A stretch of 42,786 bases of DNA from a virus, in the IMG/VR virus record IMGVR_UViG_3300050821_003358, positions 1 through 42,786 of that record, one strand, 5' to 3'. Numbering within the stretch: the stretch's first letter is position 1; every line of letters begins with the position of its first letter. This document shows positions 7,713-17,383 of the stretch, in pieces. The notes under the pieces are model-generated. The model searched no databases, was not told the DNA's origin, and saw only the letters and a program-made list of their open reading frames with translations. Made by a program: the position numbers and the translations under genes.

Positions 7713-7909
7713 GGCGTTGGTATTGCCGCCTGATGCACGCGCGGTACGGCTTTATGTTCGCTGGCGGCGACTTCGCGGAGTGCAGGCGTTGCGGTTTGCG
7801 ATGGGCGACACCTTGGAGGATTGATGAAACTTGTAGGTCTGATGCCGGTGCGAAACGAAGATTGGGTGCTCGGCTTATCGCTGCGTGTCGCGCTGTTGTG
7901 GTGCGATAG
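7709..7909 (+). CDS. Small zinc-finger-like protein, tail runs out of frame
   Basis: A 66-aa frame. The first ~35 residues look like a real protein (YC...ECRRCGLRW, a CxxC half-ribbon of the type seen in small phage proteins). From 7824 on it reads through the start of the next glycosyltransferase in another frame, with an arginine/alanine-rich composition. The natural stop may have been lost. An 86-nt overlap with the downstream gene is unusual in this otherwise 1-4 nt overlapping cassette. Confidence 0.45.
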   Translation: MRRWYCRLMHARYGFMFAGGDFAECRRCGLRWATPWRIDETCRSDAGAKRRLGARLIAACRAVVVR

Positions 7910-8711
7910 CGTTGTCGTGCTGCTTCATGAATGCGTGGACGGCTCACAGGGCATCGTTGAGCAGGTGATCCGTGAGAACGACAAAGGTCGCATCATCGTG
8001 ACGCGCGCAACGGGCGAGTGGACGGAAATGCAGCACCGTCAGCAGATGCTGGAGCACGCGCGGGCGGCCGGCGCAACGCACATCGCCATCACAGACGCAG
8101 ACGAAGTACTCAGTGGAAACCTGATACCGGGGCCGATTTGCGGTGTGCCGCTGGAGTACGCAATCAAGGAAGGCGCCATGCTGCAACTCCCGCTGTACTA
8201 TATGCGCGGCTCCGTCACGCGCTACCACTCCAACGGCATCTGGGGAAACCGCTGGACCGATGTAGCGTTCCGAGACAACCCGGCTGCGCACTGGGGCGGC
8301 GACAACTTCCACGCGCGCGCACCTCGCGGCGCAGCGTGGCAACCGTACCGACCGATTGAGCAAGGGCAGGGCGGCATCATGCACCTGTGGGCCTGCACTG
8401 GGCGCCGAATCAGAGCAAAGTGCGCTCTTTACAAAGTAACTGAGCGCCTGCGCTGGCCGCACAAATCGCTGAGCGACATCGACCGCATGTACTCGTGGGC
8501 CATTCACGGCGACTCCAGCATCGTGCGCTACGGCACGCCTGACACGTGGACGTACACTGAGGCTCCGGAATCGTGGTGGGCACCGTACGCACATCTGATG
8601 AAGTACCTTGACGTGGACGCGGAGCCGTGGCAGGAGGCTGAGGTGCAGCGGCTGGTGGCGAAGCACGGCGCGGCAATGTTCGCGGGGCTGGATTTGTTCG
8701 GGGTGGCGTGA
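7824..8711 (+). CDS. Glycosyltransferase family 2 (glycan cassette, last)
   Basis: A 295-aa protein. L-M-P-V-R-N-E-D at 6-13 is the opening of the family 2 fold and I-T-D-A-D-E at 89-94 is the DxD motif, followed by a strand-rich acceptor half with several Trp/His. Start ATG at 7824 has GGAGG four nt upstream, a somewhat tight spacing. It closes the glycan cassette; its stop overlaps the next ATG at 8711. Confidence 0.83.
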   Translation: MKLVGLMPVRNEDWVLGLSLRVALLWCDSVVVLLHECVDGSQGIVEQVIRENDKGRIIVTRATGEWTEMQHRQQMLEHARAAGATHIAITDADEVLSGNLIPGPICGVPLEYAIKEGAMLQLPLYYMRGSVTRYHSNGIWGNRWTDVAFRDNPAAHWGGDNFHARAPRGAAWQPYRPIEQGQGGIMHLWACTGRRIRAKCALYKVTERLRWPHKSLSDIDRMYSWAIHGDSSIVRYGTPDTWTYTEAPESWWAPYAHLMKYLDVDAEPWQEAEVQRLVAKHGAAMFAGLDLFGVA

Positions 8712-9061
8712 TGTTGTGCGTTGGTTGCGGTTTCCCGCTGTCGTCTTTTGCCCTCAGAACAGCTTGTCAAGCATGCGTCAATAACAGGGCATGGCTTCGG
8801 CGCCTTCAAATGTTAGTGATGTACGAGCAGGGAATGACACAGAGAGAGATCGGCCTACACTTTGGATTTTCCCCAGCAGCGGCATCCCAATACATCAGGC
8901 GCGCTAAGCGTGATCAGGACAGCAAGCTCATACACTCCGTCCAAAAGCGGTGGACTCACGCGAAGGCAATTTTGGAAATTGGTGCTATGATTGTCGCAAA
9001 TGCAGCTTCTCGGCCGCGCTCGCGTCTGGTGGAACGCTCCGAAGCAGTTAGCGGCTGCTGA
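8711..9061 (+). CDS. Zinc-ribbon/helix-turn-helix DNA-binding protein
   Basis: A 116-aa protein. C3-x-x-C6 and C19-x-x-C22 form an N-terminal zinc ribbon, and residues ~42-66 (GMTQREIGLHFGFSPAAASQYIRR) form a clear HTH of the sigma-region-4/LuxR kind. It sits directly before the portal gene. It could be a regulator or a terminase-small-like DNA-binding protein; there is no terminase large gene next to it in this window. The last ~20 codons overlap the portal start. Confidence 0.65.
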   Translation: MLCVGCGFPLSSFALRTACQACVNNRAWLRRLQMLVMYEQGMTQREIGLHFGFSPAAASQYIRRAKRDQDSKLIHSVQKRWTHAKAILEIGAMIVANAASRPRSRLVERSEAVSGC

Positions 9062-10859
9062 AAAACTGGTTACAGCGCAACGCGAAGCGCTCGAAGCTGC
9101 AGTTCAATCCCTCCAACTAGTCAAGTACGACCGAGACGAGCTCGCATGGAACACCGACCCGCGCAATCGCCGCGACCTCGAAGAGCGCAATCATCTGAAC
9201 GATGAAGTGGAAGCGTGGATGCTCGCAGGTGCAGGCCCGCGCATGGACCGCCCAACGAAAGAATCGCTACCAGCGGCTGTGCCGGTGCAGATCAAAGAGC
9301 GCTTGTGGGAACTCGAGCTCGCACTTGAAGACCGCGGATGGCAGAGACAACTCGCGCTTGCGCAAACGGAGTTCAGCCGGTACGGGCTTCAGCAGATCAT
9401 TCTCATTTCGCGGCTGATGTTCATTAAGAATCCGCTCATCCGGCGCTGGGTTCTGATCAGCGGCTACTACACGTTCGGTCGCGGCGTCGAGATTTCTTGT
9501 GACGACGAAGACGCAAATGAAGTGATTCAGGATTTCCTCACGGCAAATGTCAGCGAGTTCGGGCAGATCGGGCTCATCGAAAAGGACAACTCGCTCCACA
9601 CTGATGGACAGGTGTTCTTCGTGTTCTTCGCAGACAAGGGCAAGGGCGGATTGAAAGTTCGGACGATCCCGGCCACGGAGATCACCGACATCATCACGAA
9701 TCCCGACGACACCAGTGAAGCGCGATACTTCCAGCGGCGATGGGTGCAGCGTGTGACCGATCCAGCAACCGGCGTAACACAGAACGAGATGATGGAAAAG
9801 TTTTATCCGGCACTCGCTTATGAAGATGCTGTAGATTCCATCGGTGGCGTCGAAGTGTTGCGTGATCAGCCGGTGTACCACATGAAAGTGGGCGGCCTTA
9901 AGGAGTGGCTGTTCGGTTTGCCAGAGGTGTACTGCGGTATCGACTGGGCGCGTGCATACAAATCCTTCCTCGAAGACTGGGCGAGCCTCAATCGCGCGCT
10001 AGCCAGGTTCGCATGGAACCTCGAAACCAAGGGCGGCGTCGCGGCGATCCAGAACTTTCAGAAGGTGCTCAGTACGACGCTTGGACAGGGCGGAACGCAG
10101 ATCGAGAGCAATCCGCCACCGACAACAGGCTCCGCATTCGTGACCGGGCCGGGGAATAAGCTGGAACCAATCAAGACCGCGGGCAGCACGAACAACCCGG
10201 AGCAAGGGCGCCGCGTTCTTCTGATGCTCTGCGCGGGAGCCGGCTTGCCGGAAACGTTCTTCGGCGATGCGTCGACGGGCAGCTTGGCGACGGCGGTGAG
10301 CCTTGATCGCCCGACAGAGTTGAAGTTCCTGGAGCGGCAGGAGCGCTGGAGAGCGGTGCTACAGGTGATCGTGACGTACGCACTTCAGCAATCCAACAAA
10401 GCGCCCAAGGGCAAATTACGCGAGGCGCGGCAAAAGGCGAACCTCAACGGTGACCTGTCCGACCTCACGGTAAACGTGAAGTTCCCCGCTGTCTTGGAAC
10501 ACGACATCGCAATCATGGTGTCTGCGATCGTTCAAGCAGCCACGCTGGGCGGCTTCCAGCTTGGCGGGACGATGGACATGCGAACGACCGCCCAACTGCT
10601 CATGGCGGAGCTTGGCGTCGAAGACCCAAAGGCAGTAGTCGACGCAATGTATCCGCCTGAAGAGACAGGGGATACCAAGTACGACCCGAAGAACTACGCG
10701 GACAACGGCAAAGCGGATGCGATCGAGGACGCGCCGGCGCTTCCACCTCAGCCGGGTGCGCATCTGGTGACGCCAAGCTTCGGCAAGGAGAGCGCTAGGT
10801 TGCAATTCATCGTGGACCGGCTGCTACAGGTGAGCCGCAAGCTGCAAGAGAGCCGATAG
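9000..10859 (+). CDS. Phage portal protein
   Basis: A 619-aa protein that should form the dodecameric ring at the capsid vertex through which DNA passes. Supporting features: an N-terminal helical region, the conserved mid-section with VFFVFFADKGKGGLKVRTIPATEI and a following N-P-D-D, the wing/stem region, and the typical acidic, proline-containing C-terminus. Position upstream of MuF, protease and capsid genes agrees. ATG at 9000 chosen; TTG at 8991 is an equally possible start, and neither has a strong ribosome-binding site. It overlaps the end of the HTH gene by about 60 nt. Confidence 0.85.
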   Translation: MQLLGRARVWWNAPKQLAAAEKLVTAQREALEAAVQSLQLVKYDRDELAWNTDPRNRRDLEERNHLNDEVEAWMLAGAGPRMDRPTKESLPAAVPVQIKERLWELELALEDRGWQRQLALAQTEFSRYGLQQIILISRLMFIKNPLIRRWVLISGYYTFGRGVEISCDDEDANEVIQDFLTANVSEFGQIGLIEKDNSLHTDGQVFFVFFADKGKGGLKVRTIPATEITDIITNPDDTSEARYFQRRWVQRVTDPATGVTQNEMMEKFYPALAYEDAVDSIGGVEVLRDQPVYHMKVGGLKEWLFGLPEVYCGIDWARAYKSFLEDWASLNRALARFAWNLETKGGVAAIQNFQKVLSTTLGQGGTQIESNPPPTTGSAFVTGPGNKLEPIKTAGSTNNPEQGRRVLLMLCAGAGLPETFFGDASTGSLATAVSLDRPTELKFLERQERWRAVLQVIVTYALQQSNKAPKGKLREARQKANLNGDLSDLTVNVKFPAVLEHDIAIMVSAIVQAATLGGFQLGGTMDMRTTAQLLMAELGVEDPKAVVDAMYPPEETGDTKYDPKNYADNGKADAIEDAPALPPQPGAHLVTPSFGKESARLQFIVDRLLQVSRKLQESR

Positions 10860-11065: not shown

Positions 11066-11638
11066 ATGACCAAAAGGCAAGCGATGAAGCCAGCGCCCTT
11101 GCTGTCCATGTTTGAGGACATCGTGCAGGGCCATGGGTTTTTCATGGATTCTGCCGACTGGCATCAGCTTCGTTATTCGTGTCACGTGGACTGGCTGAAG
11201 CCTCTACTGGAAATGGGCGCGATTGAGGAAATCGGGACTTCGCCAGCATGGACGAAAGAGCAGTGGCGAAAGGCAAAAGGCGTCGGGCCGCGCCCGCGAT
11301 TCAACTATCACAAGTTTCGGGCGACGCCAGCGGGAATGAAATGGTGGCTGACGGAAAGAACGAAGGAAATAACCGACAGGGGCGCTGCGCTCGCTGCGCT
11401 CATGGAAGATCGGGGAGGCTCGCCGCAACTGGAGGGCAAAGGAATTGGAGCTGAGTTGCGGTATTGGGGCATCGGCCCGCATCACGATATGCAGGCTGCT
11501 ATGCTCGGCATTCTCGCCGGGCACTTTGAGTTTGTTAGCCTGTATCTCTACTTTTGCGAGGCATGGATTGTTGTGAGGCTCACGCGTCAGGGCTACGAGT
11601 TTTTCAGTTCGCTTCCGCGTTTTGTAGAGGTATGCTGA
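11066..11638 (+). CDS. Hypothetical protein
   Basis: A 190-aa soluble protein. It follows the leaderless gene at a 3-nt distance and is probably cotranscribed with it. It has helical segments and a C-terminal hydrophobic, beta-rich part with an F-E-F-V-S-L-Y-L-Y-F stretch. The middle (FRATPAGMKWW) resembles a winged-helix wing, so a small DNA-binding role is possible but unproven. Not recognised as any head protein. Confidence 0.6.
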   Translation: MTKRQAMKPAPLLSMFEDIVQGHGFFMDSADWHQLRYSCHVDWLKPLLEMGAIEEIGTSPAWTKEQWRKAKGVGPRPRFNYHKFRATPAGMKWWLTERTKEITDRGAALAALMEDRGGSPQLEGKGIGAELRYWGIGPHHDMQAAMLGILAGHFEFVSLYLYFCEAWIVVRLTRQGYEFFSSLPRFVEVC

Positions 11639-12907
11639 GTGAAGCTATTCTTGCAGCGCCACTGCCACTCCTTCGAAGGAGAGCGCATGGACTCCACCTT
11701 GGAACTCACCAGCAAGGGAGTGCGTGACGCAAAGCTAATGCGCCAGTTTCGCAAGGACCTGGACATCAAGTTCGACGTAGCGTTCGTGAGCGACTTCGTG
11801 CGCTGCCAACAGACCGCTGATGTGGTGGTAAACAAGAAGGCGCCGCGCTTCGACATGAAGGAGTTGCGGCCGAACTGCACACCCGAGGAAGCGTTCATCG
11901 CGATGCACAAAGCGTTTCCCGAGCTGGCGGCGTCCGACAAAGCACCGGAGACCAGCGTCTATATCTGCACGCACAATCCGCTCATCCAAGCAATCGCCGG
12001 AACGGTGTGGTTCGGGTTCAATCCGGATGTGAACAACTTCAGCCACGGCACGATGCTTCGGATTGATACGCACGAATTGCCGCCTGAGAAGCATCCGCTT
12101 CACTGGATCATTCGCCCGGGACTTGTCGAGCACATGTACGAGTCGGATCTGGTGGAGAGTGCAACGCAGTTGGTTGAGCACTTGGGCCGGGCGAGCAAAG
12201 CGCGTATTGTGGATCCGCTGATTGCTTCGCTACAGCGGGCGGTCGGGAGGCGCTTCAAGAAGCAGGGCGAAGCTTATACGACGACGGGCAGGATTTGGCC
12301 AGCTTTCGATGAGGCAAGCCGCTTCCGTACCGCTTTCGGTCGCGTCTCAAGCAAGTCATATGACGCCGGTGTAGCGCATGTGGCTGGCGCGCTCGGCGTG
12401 AACCCCGCTCCGGTATATGCAGGCGTGACTGAAGCTGCGAAGTTGAATTTGAAGCGGCAACCGCCAGGCCACGAACGCACTGCGGTGGACCTCGAAAGCG
12501 AGATAGACGCCACCACTCAGGAACGCATCGCTGCAATCGAAAGCGACGGAGTCGCCAAAGGGTTGACAGCAGCAGCTATCGCTACCGCCATACGCCAGCA
12601 GTTCCGCGAATGGGCCGGTGGTCGCGCGCTGACGATCGCTGAGGCGGAAGTGTCGCGGGCGTTTCACCAGGGCGGCGCTGACGTCGCGCGGATCGTGAAT
12701 CAGGAGGGCGGCGGGCACCTCGTAGAGAAAGCTTGGGACGGTGAACCCGATGCCTGTGATGAGATTTGCATGCCGAATATCGAGGACGGCTGGATCCCAG
12801 AGGACATTCTGTTTCAGAGCGGCGATTCGGAACCGCCAGGCCATCCGAACTGCAGATGTTCGCTGAGTTATCGGACGGTGGGGCAGAGCGAGGAGGCACG
12901 GAGATGA
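11639..12907 (+). CDS. Histidine phosphatase domain fused to MuF-type head protein
   Basis: A 422-aa protein with GTG start directly after the upstream stop. Residues 1 to ~150 match the histidine phosphatase (phosphoglycerate mutase/SixA) fold: L-F-L-Q-R-H-C (R7, H8; RHG has become RHC), LTSKG, S-D-F-V-R-C-Q-Q-T-A with R55, E75, and I-C-T-H-N with H112. All expected catalytic residues are present. Residues ~320-415 are a Mu gpF-like head morphogenesis domain ending W-D-G-E-P-D-A-C and P-P-G-H-P-N-C-R-C. MuF proteins enter the procapsid with the portal and can be ejected, so the phosphatase may be a virion-delivered enzyme. Confidence 0.8.
   Translation: MKLFLQRHCHSFEGERMDSTLELTSKGVRDAKLMRQFRKDLDIKFDVAFVSDFVRCQQTADVVVNKKAPRFDMKELRPNCTPEEAFIAMHKAFPELAASDKAPETSVYICTHNPLIQAIAGTVWFGFNPDVNNFSHGTMLRIDTHELPPEKHPLHWIIRPGLVEHMYESDLVESATQLVEHLGRASKARIVDPLIASLQRAVGRRFKKQGEAYTTTGRIWPAFDEASRFRTAFGRVSSKSYDAGVAHVAGALGVNPAPVYAGVTEAAKLNLKRQPPGHERTAVDLESEIDATTQERIAAIESDGVAKGLTAAAIATAIRQQFREWAGGRALTIAEAEVSRAFHQGGADVARIVNQEGGGHLVEKAWDGEPDACDEICMPNIEDGWIPEDILFQSGDSEPPGHPNCRCSLSYRTVGQSEEARR
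12882..12897 (+). repeat. 16-bp direct repeat carrying a ribosome-binding site (copy 1)
   Basis: GGCAGAGCGAGGAGGC occurs here and again at 13131-13146. Each copy ends a frame encoding Q-S-E-E-A-R-R-stop and supplies a GAGGAGG site about 7 nt before the next start (12904 and 13153). This looks like a duplicated gene junction. Confidence 0.85.
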
Positions 12908-13128
12908 GCGCACGAAAGAAAGATCGCTGGATTGGGACGGCTCAAGTCTTCATTGACGTTTCTGGTTATGCGCGCGCGGTACTGATTCACGAAGACGGCA
13001 GGCGTTATCGGCTCATCGGTCCCATTGGTTGCACCGGCGAAGGTGTAGACGAAATGAAGGATCGCACCGGAACGGAATCTGGATTGAAACAAAAGATTGA
13101 AAAGGAACTACGCGATGCAGGATATTGA
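12904..13128 (+). CDS. Small hypothetical protein
   Basis: A 74-aa basic protein with a short beta-rich core (RYRLIGPIG). ATG overlaps the MuF stop (ATGA) and has GAGGAGG 7 nt upstream. No family recognised. Position between MuF and protease genes is common for small accessory or head-related proteins. Confidence 0.6.
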   Translation: MSARKKDRWIGTAQVFIDVSGYARAVLIHEDGRRYRLIGPIGCTGEGVDEMKDRTGTESGLKQKIEKELRDAGY

Positions 13129-14243: not shown

Positions 14244-15455
14244 ATGCCTCTCGCCAATTGGGTAGCTCGTTTGCAAGAGGCGAACGCTGACGAGCTTGTT
14301 ATCGCGTTCGATCTCATCAAAGAAGCCGGCGCGCGCAATTCAAAGAAAGATGCGGCGCTACTCCAAACCATTCACGATCACACCGTAGCACTGGGCGCAG
14401 GTTGCGCCACGAAGGAAGCGGTCGCGGTCGACATCGTTGGCGACATCATCCCGCTCAAGGAAGGGGCTGTAGGTCAGGACGGCACCGCCTACCTAAAACT
14501 GATAGCTCCGGGTTGGGGATCGTCCGGATTTTATTCGAGCGAGGTTCTGAAGCGGGACGGGCCGCGGGTATTCCCGGCCGGAACCAAAAACTTCTGGGAC
14601 CATCAAACCGCAGCCGAAGAGTCGGCCAGGCCCGAAGGATCGCTGCGGGACCTCGCAAGTGTGCTCACCGAAGACGCGCACTGGGATGATAACGGGCCGG
14701 CTGGCGCTGGGCTCTACGCCAAGGCCAAAGTGTTCGAGCAGTTCCGACAGCCTGTCGACGACCTTTCAAAGCACATCGGCGTGAGCATTCGCGCAAACGG
14801 ACGCGCGAAAGAAGGCGCCGCGGACGGCAAGAAGGGCCCAATCATCGAGCAACTCACCCGCGGCATCAGCGCCGACTACGTGACGACGCCAGGCGCGGGC
14901 GGCAAGATTCTGCAGTTATTCGAGGCGGCGCGTGGCCGCGAATCCACACAAGGAGACAACGATATGGATGAGGCCACCGTTAAACGGCTCATCGCGGAGG
15001 CGACGGCACCGCTGATCGCTGAAAACAAAAAGCTCAAGGAGGCCATCGCCGCGGATGAAGCGCCGAAGGTCAAACGGGGCAAAACCATCAAGCGCATGCT
15101 CGAAGGGATCAATCTCCCGGGCGTGTATCGTGACTTGCTCATTGAGCGCGTGAAAGCAAAGTATCCGCTCACCGAAGCCGGCGTTACAGACGAGACGCGG
15201 CTCAAGGCGCTCGTTGAGAAAGAGCTCGGCAAGATCGCGGAGCAACTATCGAAGGAAACCGGGCGCGTCGTCAACCTGGGTCCGGCACCTACGGTCGACC
15301 CGAAGCTTCGCGAAGCAGCGGGGCAGGAGTGGGACAAGCAATTTTCCGAATCCATGCACGAGCTCGCGGATGAGTTCATGGACCACAACGAAGAGTCGGA
15401 TCCCAAGGCGGTTGAACGGCGCCGCAACCTCTTCACCAACGGGAGGGCAGCGTGA
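14244..15455 (+). CDS. Prohead protease with C-terminal scaffold domain
   Basis: A 403-aa protein. Residues ~60-230 form a phage prohead serine protease-like domain; H120 (in N-F-W-D-H-Q-T) and S181 (in H-I-G-V-S-I-R-A-N-G) fit the catalytic His/Ser spacing of the Mu/HK97-type family. Residues 241-403 are charged, coiled-coil rich and scaffold-like. The start has GAGG five nt upstream. The enzyme should process scaffold and capsid subunits during maturation and then destroy itself. Confidence 0.8.
   Translation: MPLANWVARLQEANADELVIAFDLIKEAGARNSKKDAALLQTIHDHTVALGAGCATKEAVAVDIVGDIIPLKEGAVGQDGTAYLKLIAPGWGSSGFYSSEVLKRDGPRVFPAGTKNFWDHQTAAEESARPEGSLRDLASVLTEDAHWDDNGPAGAGLYAKAKVFEQFRQPVDDLSKHIGVSIRANGRAKEGAADGKKGPIIEQLTRGISADYVTTPGAGGKILQLFEAARGRESTQGDNDMDEATVKRLIAEATAPLIAENKKLKEAIAADEAPKVKRGKTIKRMLEGINLPGVYRDLLIERVKAKYPLTEAGVTDETRLKALVEKELGKIAEQLSKETGRVVNLGPAPTVDPKLREAAGQEWDKQFSESMHELADEFMDHNEESDPKAVERRRNLFTNGRAA
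14964..15455 (+). CDS. Nested in-frame scaffolding protein
   Basis: Within the protease gene an AAGGAGA site (about 14950-14955) lies 8 nt before ATG 14964, in the same frame. Translation from there yields a 163-aa acidic coiled-coil protein that is the C-terminal scaffold region alone. This matches the lambda C/Nu3 arrangement, in which the scaffold is made in excess from an internal start. The site is a much better Shine-Dalgarno than that of the full-length gene. Confidence 0.75.
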   Translation: MDEATVKRLIAEATAPLIAENKKLKEAIAADEAPKVKRGKTIKRMLEGINLPGVYRDLLIERVKAKYPLTEAGVTDETRLKALVEKELGKIAEQLSKETGRVVNLGPAPTVDPKLREAAGQEWDKQFSESMHELADEFMDHNEESDPKAVERRRNLFTNGRAA

Positions 15456-15910: not shown

Positions 15911-17383
15911 ATGAGCATCGATTTTATTGAAGTACTCAAAAACGTGGGCGACTTTCCGTCGCGCCAATGGTCTCCCGGTGACTCAGGCGGCGGCCCGCCG
16001 ATTATCCTCAACAAGGGTGCGCAGAGCGCCCGCGGCGATTTATTCGACCCGACCAAGATCAACGCCAAAGAATCGAACGCAGGCGCGTACACCTGGGAAG
16101 GCCGCAGCAACGCTTACGACGACAACGACGTCGCCGGATTCCGGCGGCCGCGCTACGTAACGCGTCAGACACCGCTGCAAGTTCGCCGATTCTATGAGCG
16201 CAACCTGATGGCGGCCTCTCATCTCATCAAGTCCGCGTTCGACGGCAATGGTTACGCGCGGCTGATGTTCAAGGACGCCATGATGGGCAACCGGCGCATT
16301 CAAGAAGCGCTCTCCATCTCAGACTTTCCTAACCTCTTCGGCGACGTGATCGACCGCGCGGTACTCGCCAACTATCGCGAGACTCCGTACATCTGGAACA
16401 TGATTGCGAAGCTTTCGGAAGTGAACGACTTCCGCCAGGTGCGCCGGTTCCGTGTTGACAATGGAACTGGAATCGGTACGCTCGATGCGTCCGGAAACCT
16501 CACGCCGATCCCGATGGGCGGCGACTATCCCGAAGACAAGCTCACCGATGCGCAGTACACCTATCGCGTGCAGAAGTACGGGCGCCGGATGCCGTTCTTC
16601 TGGGAGACGTTCATCAACGACGACCTAAACGCCATCAAGGACACGCCGGCGCGTTTCGGCCGCGCGATGCGCAGGATGGAAGAGTACTTCGTCACGAAGC
16701 TTTTCGCCAACAACACCAGCTTTTTCACGGCCGCCAACCTGAACATTGTGGTTCCGAGTGGCGTCTACTCGAAGACCAACCCGTCTCTCGATATCACTGC
16801 GCTCGCACAGGCGCTGACCATCATGAGTCAGCAACTTGATCCTGATGGGCAGCCGATCACGATCGAAGCTGTGACGCTCGTGGTTCCTCCGGCGCTCAAA
16901 GTGACCGCGCAGAACATTCTCAACGCGGATTACTTCTGGGCGAATGACCAGGGCGGAACCGCCATCGGCGCAGGCTCCGGAGCGACAGCGACCAACACCA
17001 GCGGCCAGCGGCTCAACGTGGCAAACTGGGCGCGCAACATCGTCAAGCTCGCGGTCGATTACTACCTGCCGATCGTAGACACCGCGCACGGCAGCACCGG
17101 CTGGTATCTTTTCTCGGATCCAAACAGCGGGCGCCCGGCGCTCGAATTTGGCAAGCTCCGCGGTCACACCAATCCCGACCTGTTCATGAAGCTGCCGAAT
17201 AGCGTTGCAATCGGCGAAGGCCAGATGGGGCCCGGCATGGGCATCATCCCCGGCACGACCAACCAAAACCCAATGGAGGGCGACTTCGACACCGATAGCG
17301 TGCATTACAAGATTAGGCACGTTTTTGGCGGTACTACGATTGATCCCTTGATGGCGATCTACAGCAATGGAGCGAACGCGTAA
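15911..17383 (+). CDS. Major capsid protein
   Basis: A 490-aa protein, preceded by an AGGAG site (about 15900) 6 nt before ATG 15911. The order (protease/scaffold, decoration, this gene) and conserved segments such as RETPYIWNMIAKLSEV, the long E-loop-like strand stretch and the F-W-E-T-F-I-N-D-D-L region identify it as the shell subunit, probably with an HK97 fold. It lacks an obvious cleavable N-terminal delta domain; the scaffold is encoded separately. Confidence 0.85.
   Translation: MSIDFIEVLKNVGDFPSRQWSPGDSGGGPPIILNKGAQSARGDLFDPTKINAKESNAGAYTWEGRSNAYDDNDVAGFRRPRYVTRQTPLQVRRFYERNLMAASHLIKSAFDGNGYARLMFKDAMMGNRRIQEALSISDFPNLFGDVIDRAVLANYRETPYIWNMIAKLSEVNDFRQVRRFRVDNGTGIGTLDASGNLTPIPMGGDYPEDKLTDAQYTYRVQKYGRRMPFFWETFINDDLNAIKDTPARFGRAMRRMEEYFVTKLFANNTSFFTAANLNIVVPSGVYSKTNPSLDITALAQALTIMSQQLDPDGQPITIEAVTLVVPPALKVTAQNILNADYFWANDQGGTAIGAGSGATATNTSGQRLNVANWARNIVKLAVDYYLPIVDTAHGSTGWYLFSDPNSGRPALEFGKLRGHTNPDLFMKLPNSVAIGEGQMGPGMGIIPGTTNQNPMEGDFDTDSVHYKIRHVFGGTTIDPLMAIYSNGANA

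Follow-up and report, generated by a model that had tools for sequence, protein, structure and literature searches.

The window, a stretch of 42,786 bases that makes up IMG/VR record IMGVR_UViG_3300050821_003358, encodes a protein in which a SixA-type histidine phosphatase domain is fused to the amino-terminus of a complete MuF minor head domain, and the same in-frame fusion is present in 14 other contigs. SixA enzymes take phosphate off histidines of bacterial proteins, and the MuF protein is expected at the port through which DNA leaves the phage head. The fusion therefore suggests that these uncultured phages have a phosphatase on board the virion, from which it may be injected into the bacterium. 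Carriage of enzymes on MuF proteins is known; what sets this case apart is an enzyme for which we found no earlier report, attached to the less usual terminus of MuF and conserved across a phage clade.

The fusion gene and its locus

The gene (Table 1) is a 422-residue open reading frame with no internal stop, and its GTG start immediately follows the TGA of the open reading frame directly 5'. The GTG is preferred because all relatives start at the same residue 1; a later ATG at 11687, which has an SD-like AAGGAG, was rejected, as it would delete the RH motif. A separate MuF-only product from an internal ATG at 12134 is unsupported, since that start lacks an SD. Pfam and PHROG profiles place the gene between the portal gene and those for the protease and major capsid protein, the interval in which MuF genes are usually found. 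A small open reading frame ending at 13128 comes after it, and genes for a major tail protein and a tape measure protein lie 3' of the major capsid gene. The open reading frame directly 5' of the fusion gene gave no family match in Pfam, PHROG or NCBIfam and has no homologue in the related loci. Upstream of the portal gene is a glycosyltransferase-2-like gene (7821-8711), matched at E<1e-70 in at least 25 open reading frames of related loci, with 44 matches overall.

Table 1. Features of the fusion gene and its surroundings, in window coordinates.
Feature	Positions	Strand	Basis or description
SixA-MuF fusion gene	11639..12907	+	open reading frame; profiles match both domains; same fusion in other contigs
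SixA-type histidine phosphatase domain	11639..12133	+	residues 1-165; R7, H8, R55, H112, phage-specific G14 and H136; TIGR00249, Foldseek, conservation
Complete MuF minor head domain	12143..12907	+	residues 169-422; phrog_2662; aligns over its whole length with a 269-aa MuF protein; minor capsid proteins matched in BFVD
MuF cysteine module, W-D-G...C-x3-C...GWI...SGD..P..HPNCRC	12737..12859	+	kept in MuF relatives; in related phages also free-standing, behind SixA or within it
SD-like AGAGG	11626..11630	+	8-12 nt before the GTG start, 7 nt clear; sequence
Portal protein	8991..10859	+	phrog_10963, E=6.9e-71
190-aa open reading frame, directly 5' of the fusion gene	11066..11638	+	
Head maturation protease family protein	14244..15455	+	phrog_15531, E=8.8e-30
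Major capsid protein	15911..17383	+	Pfam Phage_capsid_4, E=1.1e-39

The amino-terminal domain is of SixA type

An earlier note on this DNA had proposed a histidine phosphatase at the amino-terminus, an assignment that can now be made more precise. Residues 4-66 pass the Pfam His_Phos_1 cut-off (29.3 bits against 21.7), and residues 1-160 match the NCBIfam SixA model TIGR00249 over its full length (1-154 of 154, E=1.2e-15) with 57.7 bits, which lies under the equivalog cut-off of 74.5. Because of this score we call the domain SixA-type and not SixA; six relatives (L022, L023, L024, L025, L027 and L094) do pass the cut-off. In a phmmer search of solved structures E. coli SixA (1ujb) ranked first. 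A profile built from nine phage domains returned 1ujb at E=4.8e-23, with the next entry ten orders of magnitude behind (8.4e-13) and CobC, PGM, phosphoserine phosphatases and RosC among the more distant matches. An AlphaFold2 model of the whole protein has a mean pLDDT of 83.9 and values of about 95 across most of the first 120 residues. The best PDB matches of this model in Foldseek are SixA structures (1ujb, TMt 0.84; alr0221; 2rfl), a match that is not independent of the sequence match because the AlphaFold input alignment included cellular SixA proteins. The model has a histidine phosphatase fold, and the non-phosphatase fold that the note had named as counter-evidence was not seen.

Four residues expected of an active site, R7, H8, R55 and H112, are invariant in 17 of 17 phage domains, and their loss among homologues, likewise named as counter-evidence, did not occur. 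A fifth member of the catalytic set proposed from the single sequence, E75, fell away on comparison, being present in 3 of 17 phage domains and 19 of 80 cellular ones. The RHC in place of RHG that had looked odd is not peculiar to the window, as L196, L228 and L235 share it; position 9 is A, C, G or S, with RHA in most phage members. The dN/dS of the phosphatase part is about 0.13-0.2, a rough ratio because dS is close to saturation, and in every pair tested this part was at least as conserved as the MuF part. From the invariance of the four residues and the low dN/dS we consider the phage domain to be probably an active enzyme.

The domain shares with E. coli SixA (PDB 1ujb/1ujc; TIGR00249) its full length, its fold and the four residues above, and it is similarly small, without the long insertions of other branch-1 members. 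It differs from cellular SixA in being joined to a phage head protein and in its sub-threshold score. The phage group alone has an invariant G14 and H136, and at position 9 has A or C as often as G. H136 occurs in none of the 80 cellular SixA sequences, in which this position is mostly T, K or P. These two residues may mark a difference in substrate from cellular SixA, and since they separate the phage domains from the cellular ones the substrate of the phage enzyme could be a different one.

The carboxy-terminal half is a complete MuF protein

The MuF half scores 20.0 bits with Pfam Phage_Mu_F in the window, below the cut-off of 29.6, which is passed in the relatives L014, L024 and L095. Residues 287-419 match PHROG head-morphogenesis and portal families (phrog_2662, E=1.9e-15), and Foldseek against viral models (BFVD) returned minor capsid and head-morphogenesis proteins. 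The 269-residue gp11 of Methanoculleus virus L4768 aligns with this half from end to end, at 31% identity, and has no amino-terminal addition; the phosphatase was therefore added to a whole MuF and replaces no part of it. MuF reaches to about residue 410 of 422, and the domain is full length and has its cysteine tail. The C-x-C end noted earlier is real (HPNCRC), though it is the terminus of a longer motif, C-x2-N...GWI...SGD..P..HPNCRC. In its complete domain, its cysteine tail and the order of portal, protease and capsid genes the protein resembles the MuF minor head proteins of phage Mu (gpF) and SPP1 (gp7; PF04233). Unlike these it bears an amino-terminal enzyme, and its Pfam score is under a cut-off that several relatives exceed.

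Relatives and architectures

Relatives were gathered by portal, MuF and HP alignment scans of viral contigs together with searches of open reading frames. Single-protein scans of the viral contigs, with either the whole fusion or the HP domain as query, found no relative. The INPHARED phage collection gave MuF and portal matches only and no relative with the phosphatase, and in a scan of genome contigs every SixA was cellular, without a profile match to MuF or portal close to any of them. When 396 genomes from the phylum of the L151 genome, an acidobacterium, were searched for the portal, three weak partial matches appeared, too little to assign a host.

The earlier suggestion to look for further MuF-histidine phosphatase fusions proved productive. 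SixA followed by a whole MuF is found in 15 contigs of 11 distinct lineages, window included (the window, L013/L014/L015/L098, L016/L017, L024, L095, L101, L196, L203, L206, L228 and L235); in L206 the middle part is shortened. The five relatives measured share 24-40% identity with the window in the one half as in the other, L101 being the closest with 38% and 40%. Ten more contigs have the same phosphatase either with a short MuF cysteine module or alone. In the first of these arrangements only the module GWIDMDD-F-SGDDEPPxHPNCxC accompanies SixA. It follows the SixA domain in L204/L207, and in L020/L021, L022, L023 and L025 (e.g. L023:7945-8757) it lies inside the last SixA hairpin, between 'AHFET' and 'LHWLVTPNVVARDE', an odd nesting of a head-protein module within an enzyme. 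A model of the L023 protein retains the SixA fold (1ujb, TMt 0.78), with low confidence in the inserted module. SixA without MuF adjoins the portal in L027 and L094 (directly after the portal gene). In L026 it lies downstream by several kilobases, in a locus that stops within the domain. The tie to the portal or MuF locus is thus kept across architectures, as L027 and L094 adjoin the portal and L020-L023, L025 and L204 carry the cysteine module.

Where the phosphatase is lacking, the locus encodes an ordinary MuF in most relatives. In close relatives, among them L018, L028, L184 and L185, the cysteine module occurs by itself in a small protein; the examples at L018:7751-8113, L028:3589-3987, L184:6950-7276 and elsewhere are of about 100-180 residues, barely more than the module itself (GEYYYE..KRW.LGDGGRAGNC..C...), and are possibly a minimal MuF.

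Evolution of the fusion

In a tree of the 17 phage domains and 80 cellular SixA sequences one branch separates all the phage domains from the cellular ones (ultrafast bootstrap 100, SH-aLRT 98); patterns derived from the phage domains had been used to collect the cellular set, which may therefore miss a closer cellular sister. In the portal tree, for which the domain was sought up to about 6 kb from the portal, it is present in 18 of the 56 members of one supported clade. A nineteenth member, L197, has the domain elsewhere on its contig, at the locus L235. In rows outside this clade no SixA domain was found near the portals (within about 6 kb). A first portal tree had suggested one gain at the base of a small clade, a reading that was dropped because wider sampling showed a patchy pattern over the 56 rows. 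A single origin of the domain itself still stands, and the distribution fits best with a SixA gene having been captured once and then spread, lost and rearranged at the MuF locus.

Other additions to MuF were seen among the relatives. In five of them (L198:7831-9666, L203:8197-10218, L208:8369-9946, L219:8904-10586 and L230:4072-6099) intein-like (Hint) sequences of about 200-280 residues lie in the MuF cysteine tail, between HPN and CxC, and their excision would restore the usual HPNCxC end. Those of L198, L219 and L230 match Pfam Intein_splicing below the cut-off; L203 and L208 were judged by eye. In the same phage clade, L226:8460-10166 has a second, unrelated histidine phosphatase (PhoE/PGM-like, PDB 1ebb/1h2e, E=4e-5) inside MuF. 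It lacks the usual RHG motif and the second histidine in normal form and may be degenerate; with it, MuF would have recruited this superfamily a second time, independently. L230:4072-6099 and L232:8301-9557 carry a different amino-terminal domain on MuF (...LMKGQ..VAITQGFG), which suggests that in this clade the MuF amino-terminus is a site where domains are swapped.

A proposed role and its alternatives

The MuF protein of phage SPP1, gp7, is bound by the portal, which brings it into the procapsid in few copies. Assembly does not require gp7, but only about 25% of the virions that lack it are infectious (PMC6316719). MuF-linked toxins are thought to use a gp7-like route (PMC6316719; PMC5576092). 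That the phosphatase is carried in the virion is a reasonable reading because its MuF is complete, its gene lies in the head module and the SPP1 portal places gp7 inside the capsid. The known targets of SixA are the phosphocarrier NPr and nucleoside diphosphate kinase (Ndk), and possibly HPt domains of sensor kinases. SixA dephosphorylates NPr (PMC7948535, PMC6282199) and removes the phosphate from the catalytic histidine of Ndk, lowering Ndk activity (PMC12934123). The gp7 route joined with the action of SixA on NPr and Ndk argues that the phage probably delivers a phosphohistidine phosphatase.

We propose that the MuF half (residues about 170-420) would bind the portal and bring the fusion protein into the procapsid in few copies. 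The SixA-type half would be active, forming a phospho-H8 intermediate in a pocket of R7, R55 and H112. The phosphatase would ride in the head, enter the cell with the DNA and strip phosphate from histidines of host proteins. As infection begins, this would shift control by PTS(Ntr), by phosphorelays or of nucleotides, with host nitrogen/potassium signalling or nucleotide balance altered on entry. The reading as a whole, a portal-bound and packaged phosphohistidine phosphatase delivered with the DNA, for which we infer packaging, delivery and substrate, we put at a little under an even chance. What we regard as the main argument against a delivered enzyme is the low copy number reported for SPP1 gp7. 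Further points against the reading are the distance of several kilobases between gene and portal in L026 and L196, and the phage-specific G14 and H136, with which the substrate may differ. A delivered phosphohistidine phosphatase would have a role similar to that of T4 Alt, a virion-delivered reprogramming enzyme, and would differ in acting by dephosphorylation and on N-phosphorylation.

It is also conceivable that an active, virion-delivered phosphatase acts on something other than protein, such as a nucleotide, a signalling or defence second messenger or a phosphometabolite. The breadth of the superfamily, seen in the more distant structural matches, would allow this, the phage-invariant H136 suggests an altered specificity, and MuF is otherwise fused to nucleotide-acting enzymes (PMC5512222). 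Set against these points are a SixA match far above the rest of the superfamily and a PADLOC search that gave no match and so no link to a known defence protein, and we consider a non-protein substrate unlikely. Delivery itself might be the mistaken element, with the phosphatase working on a phage or host protein in the producing cell during head assembly or packaging. As a late head-module gene encoding a protein of a class made during assembly, the fusion would fit such a role, and the cysteine module within the phosphatase of L020-L025 points to a close bond between enzyme and head protein. However, the ordinary MuF at the same locus in most relatives without a phosphatase indicates that assembly does not need it, and we know of no phosphohistidine step in head assembly; we think this role quite improbable.

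If the domain were catalytically dead and instead gave MuF a structural or binding module, it would have a parallel in the carboxy-terminal PBECR of phage Mu, another MuF addition, which is inactive (PMC5512222). The four pocket residues, invariant in 17/17 domains across 25-40% identity, and the low dN/dS make this very unlikely. A chance join or assembly artefact of one contig, a concern while only the window sequence was available, is refuted by the independent copies of the fusion, which come mostly from different metagenome samples with identities down to 24-29%, and its probability is close to nil. The phosphohistidine phosphatase carried at the portal can also be stated for the group as a whole: an environmental phage clade that packages the enzyme at the portal and injects it, so that host histidine-phosphate signalling (PTS-Ntr, HPt phosphorelays or Ndk) is turned off in the first minutes. 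We advance this wider form tentatively, at about one chance in three.

Relation to known systems and implications

MuF polymorphic toxins (Jamet et al. 2017, PMC5576092) are likewise MuF domains joined to another domain and proposed as capsid cargo. In these, however, an immunity gene accompanies an amino-terminal MuF and a carboxy-terminal toxin; the window protein does not share this order of domains, its enzyme being amino-terminal, and no toxin domain is seen in it; the word 'phosphatase' is absent from that paper. Fusions of MuF to 2H phosphoesterase, PRTase, RelA/SpoT, zeta kinase and PBECR domains, thought to be delivered, were described by Iyer et al. 2017 (PMC5512222). These polyvalent/MuF fusions also place an enzyme on MuF, but no histidine phosphatase or SixA is reported there. 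Viral sixA is known from soil viromes, where a review (PMC12713726, citing Trubl et al.), in its passage on the gene, treats it as an unvalidated auxiliary metabolic gene under central carbon metabolism and mentions no head-protein fusion. A search for 'MuF' with 'histidine phosphatase' returned unrelated papers only, and we found no published fusion of this kind, nor SixA in such a role; this is no proof of novelty, since the search covered open-licence papers only.

The MuF partners named in these papers (PMC5512222, PMC5576092) are either toxins or domains of RNase-like, phosphoesterase, kinase, transferase and alarmone-synthetase type. A conserved SixA at MuF points instead to control of host histidine phosphorylation by the incoming phage, which we did not find described in the open-licence literature. 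The idea is directly testable because the SixA targets NPr and Ndk have recently been worked out. It is possible, too, that some sixA genes from soil viromes that have been counted as auxiliary metabolic genes encode part of a virion protein.
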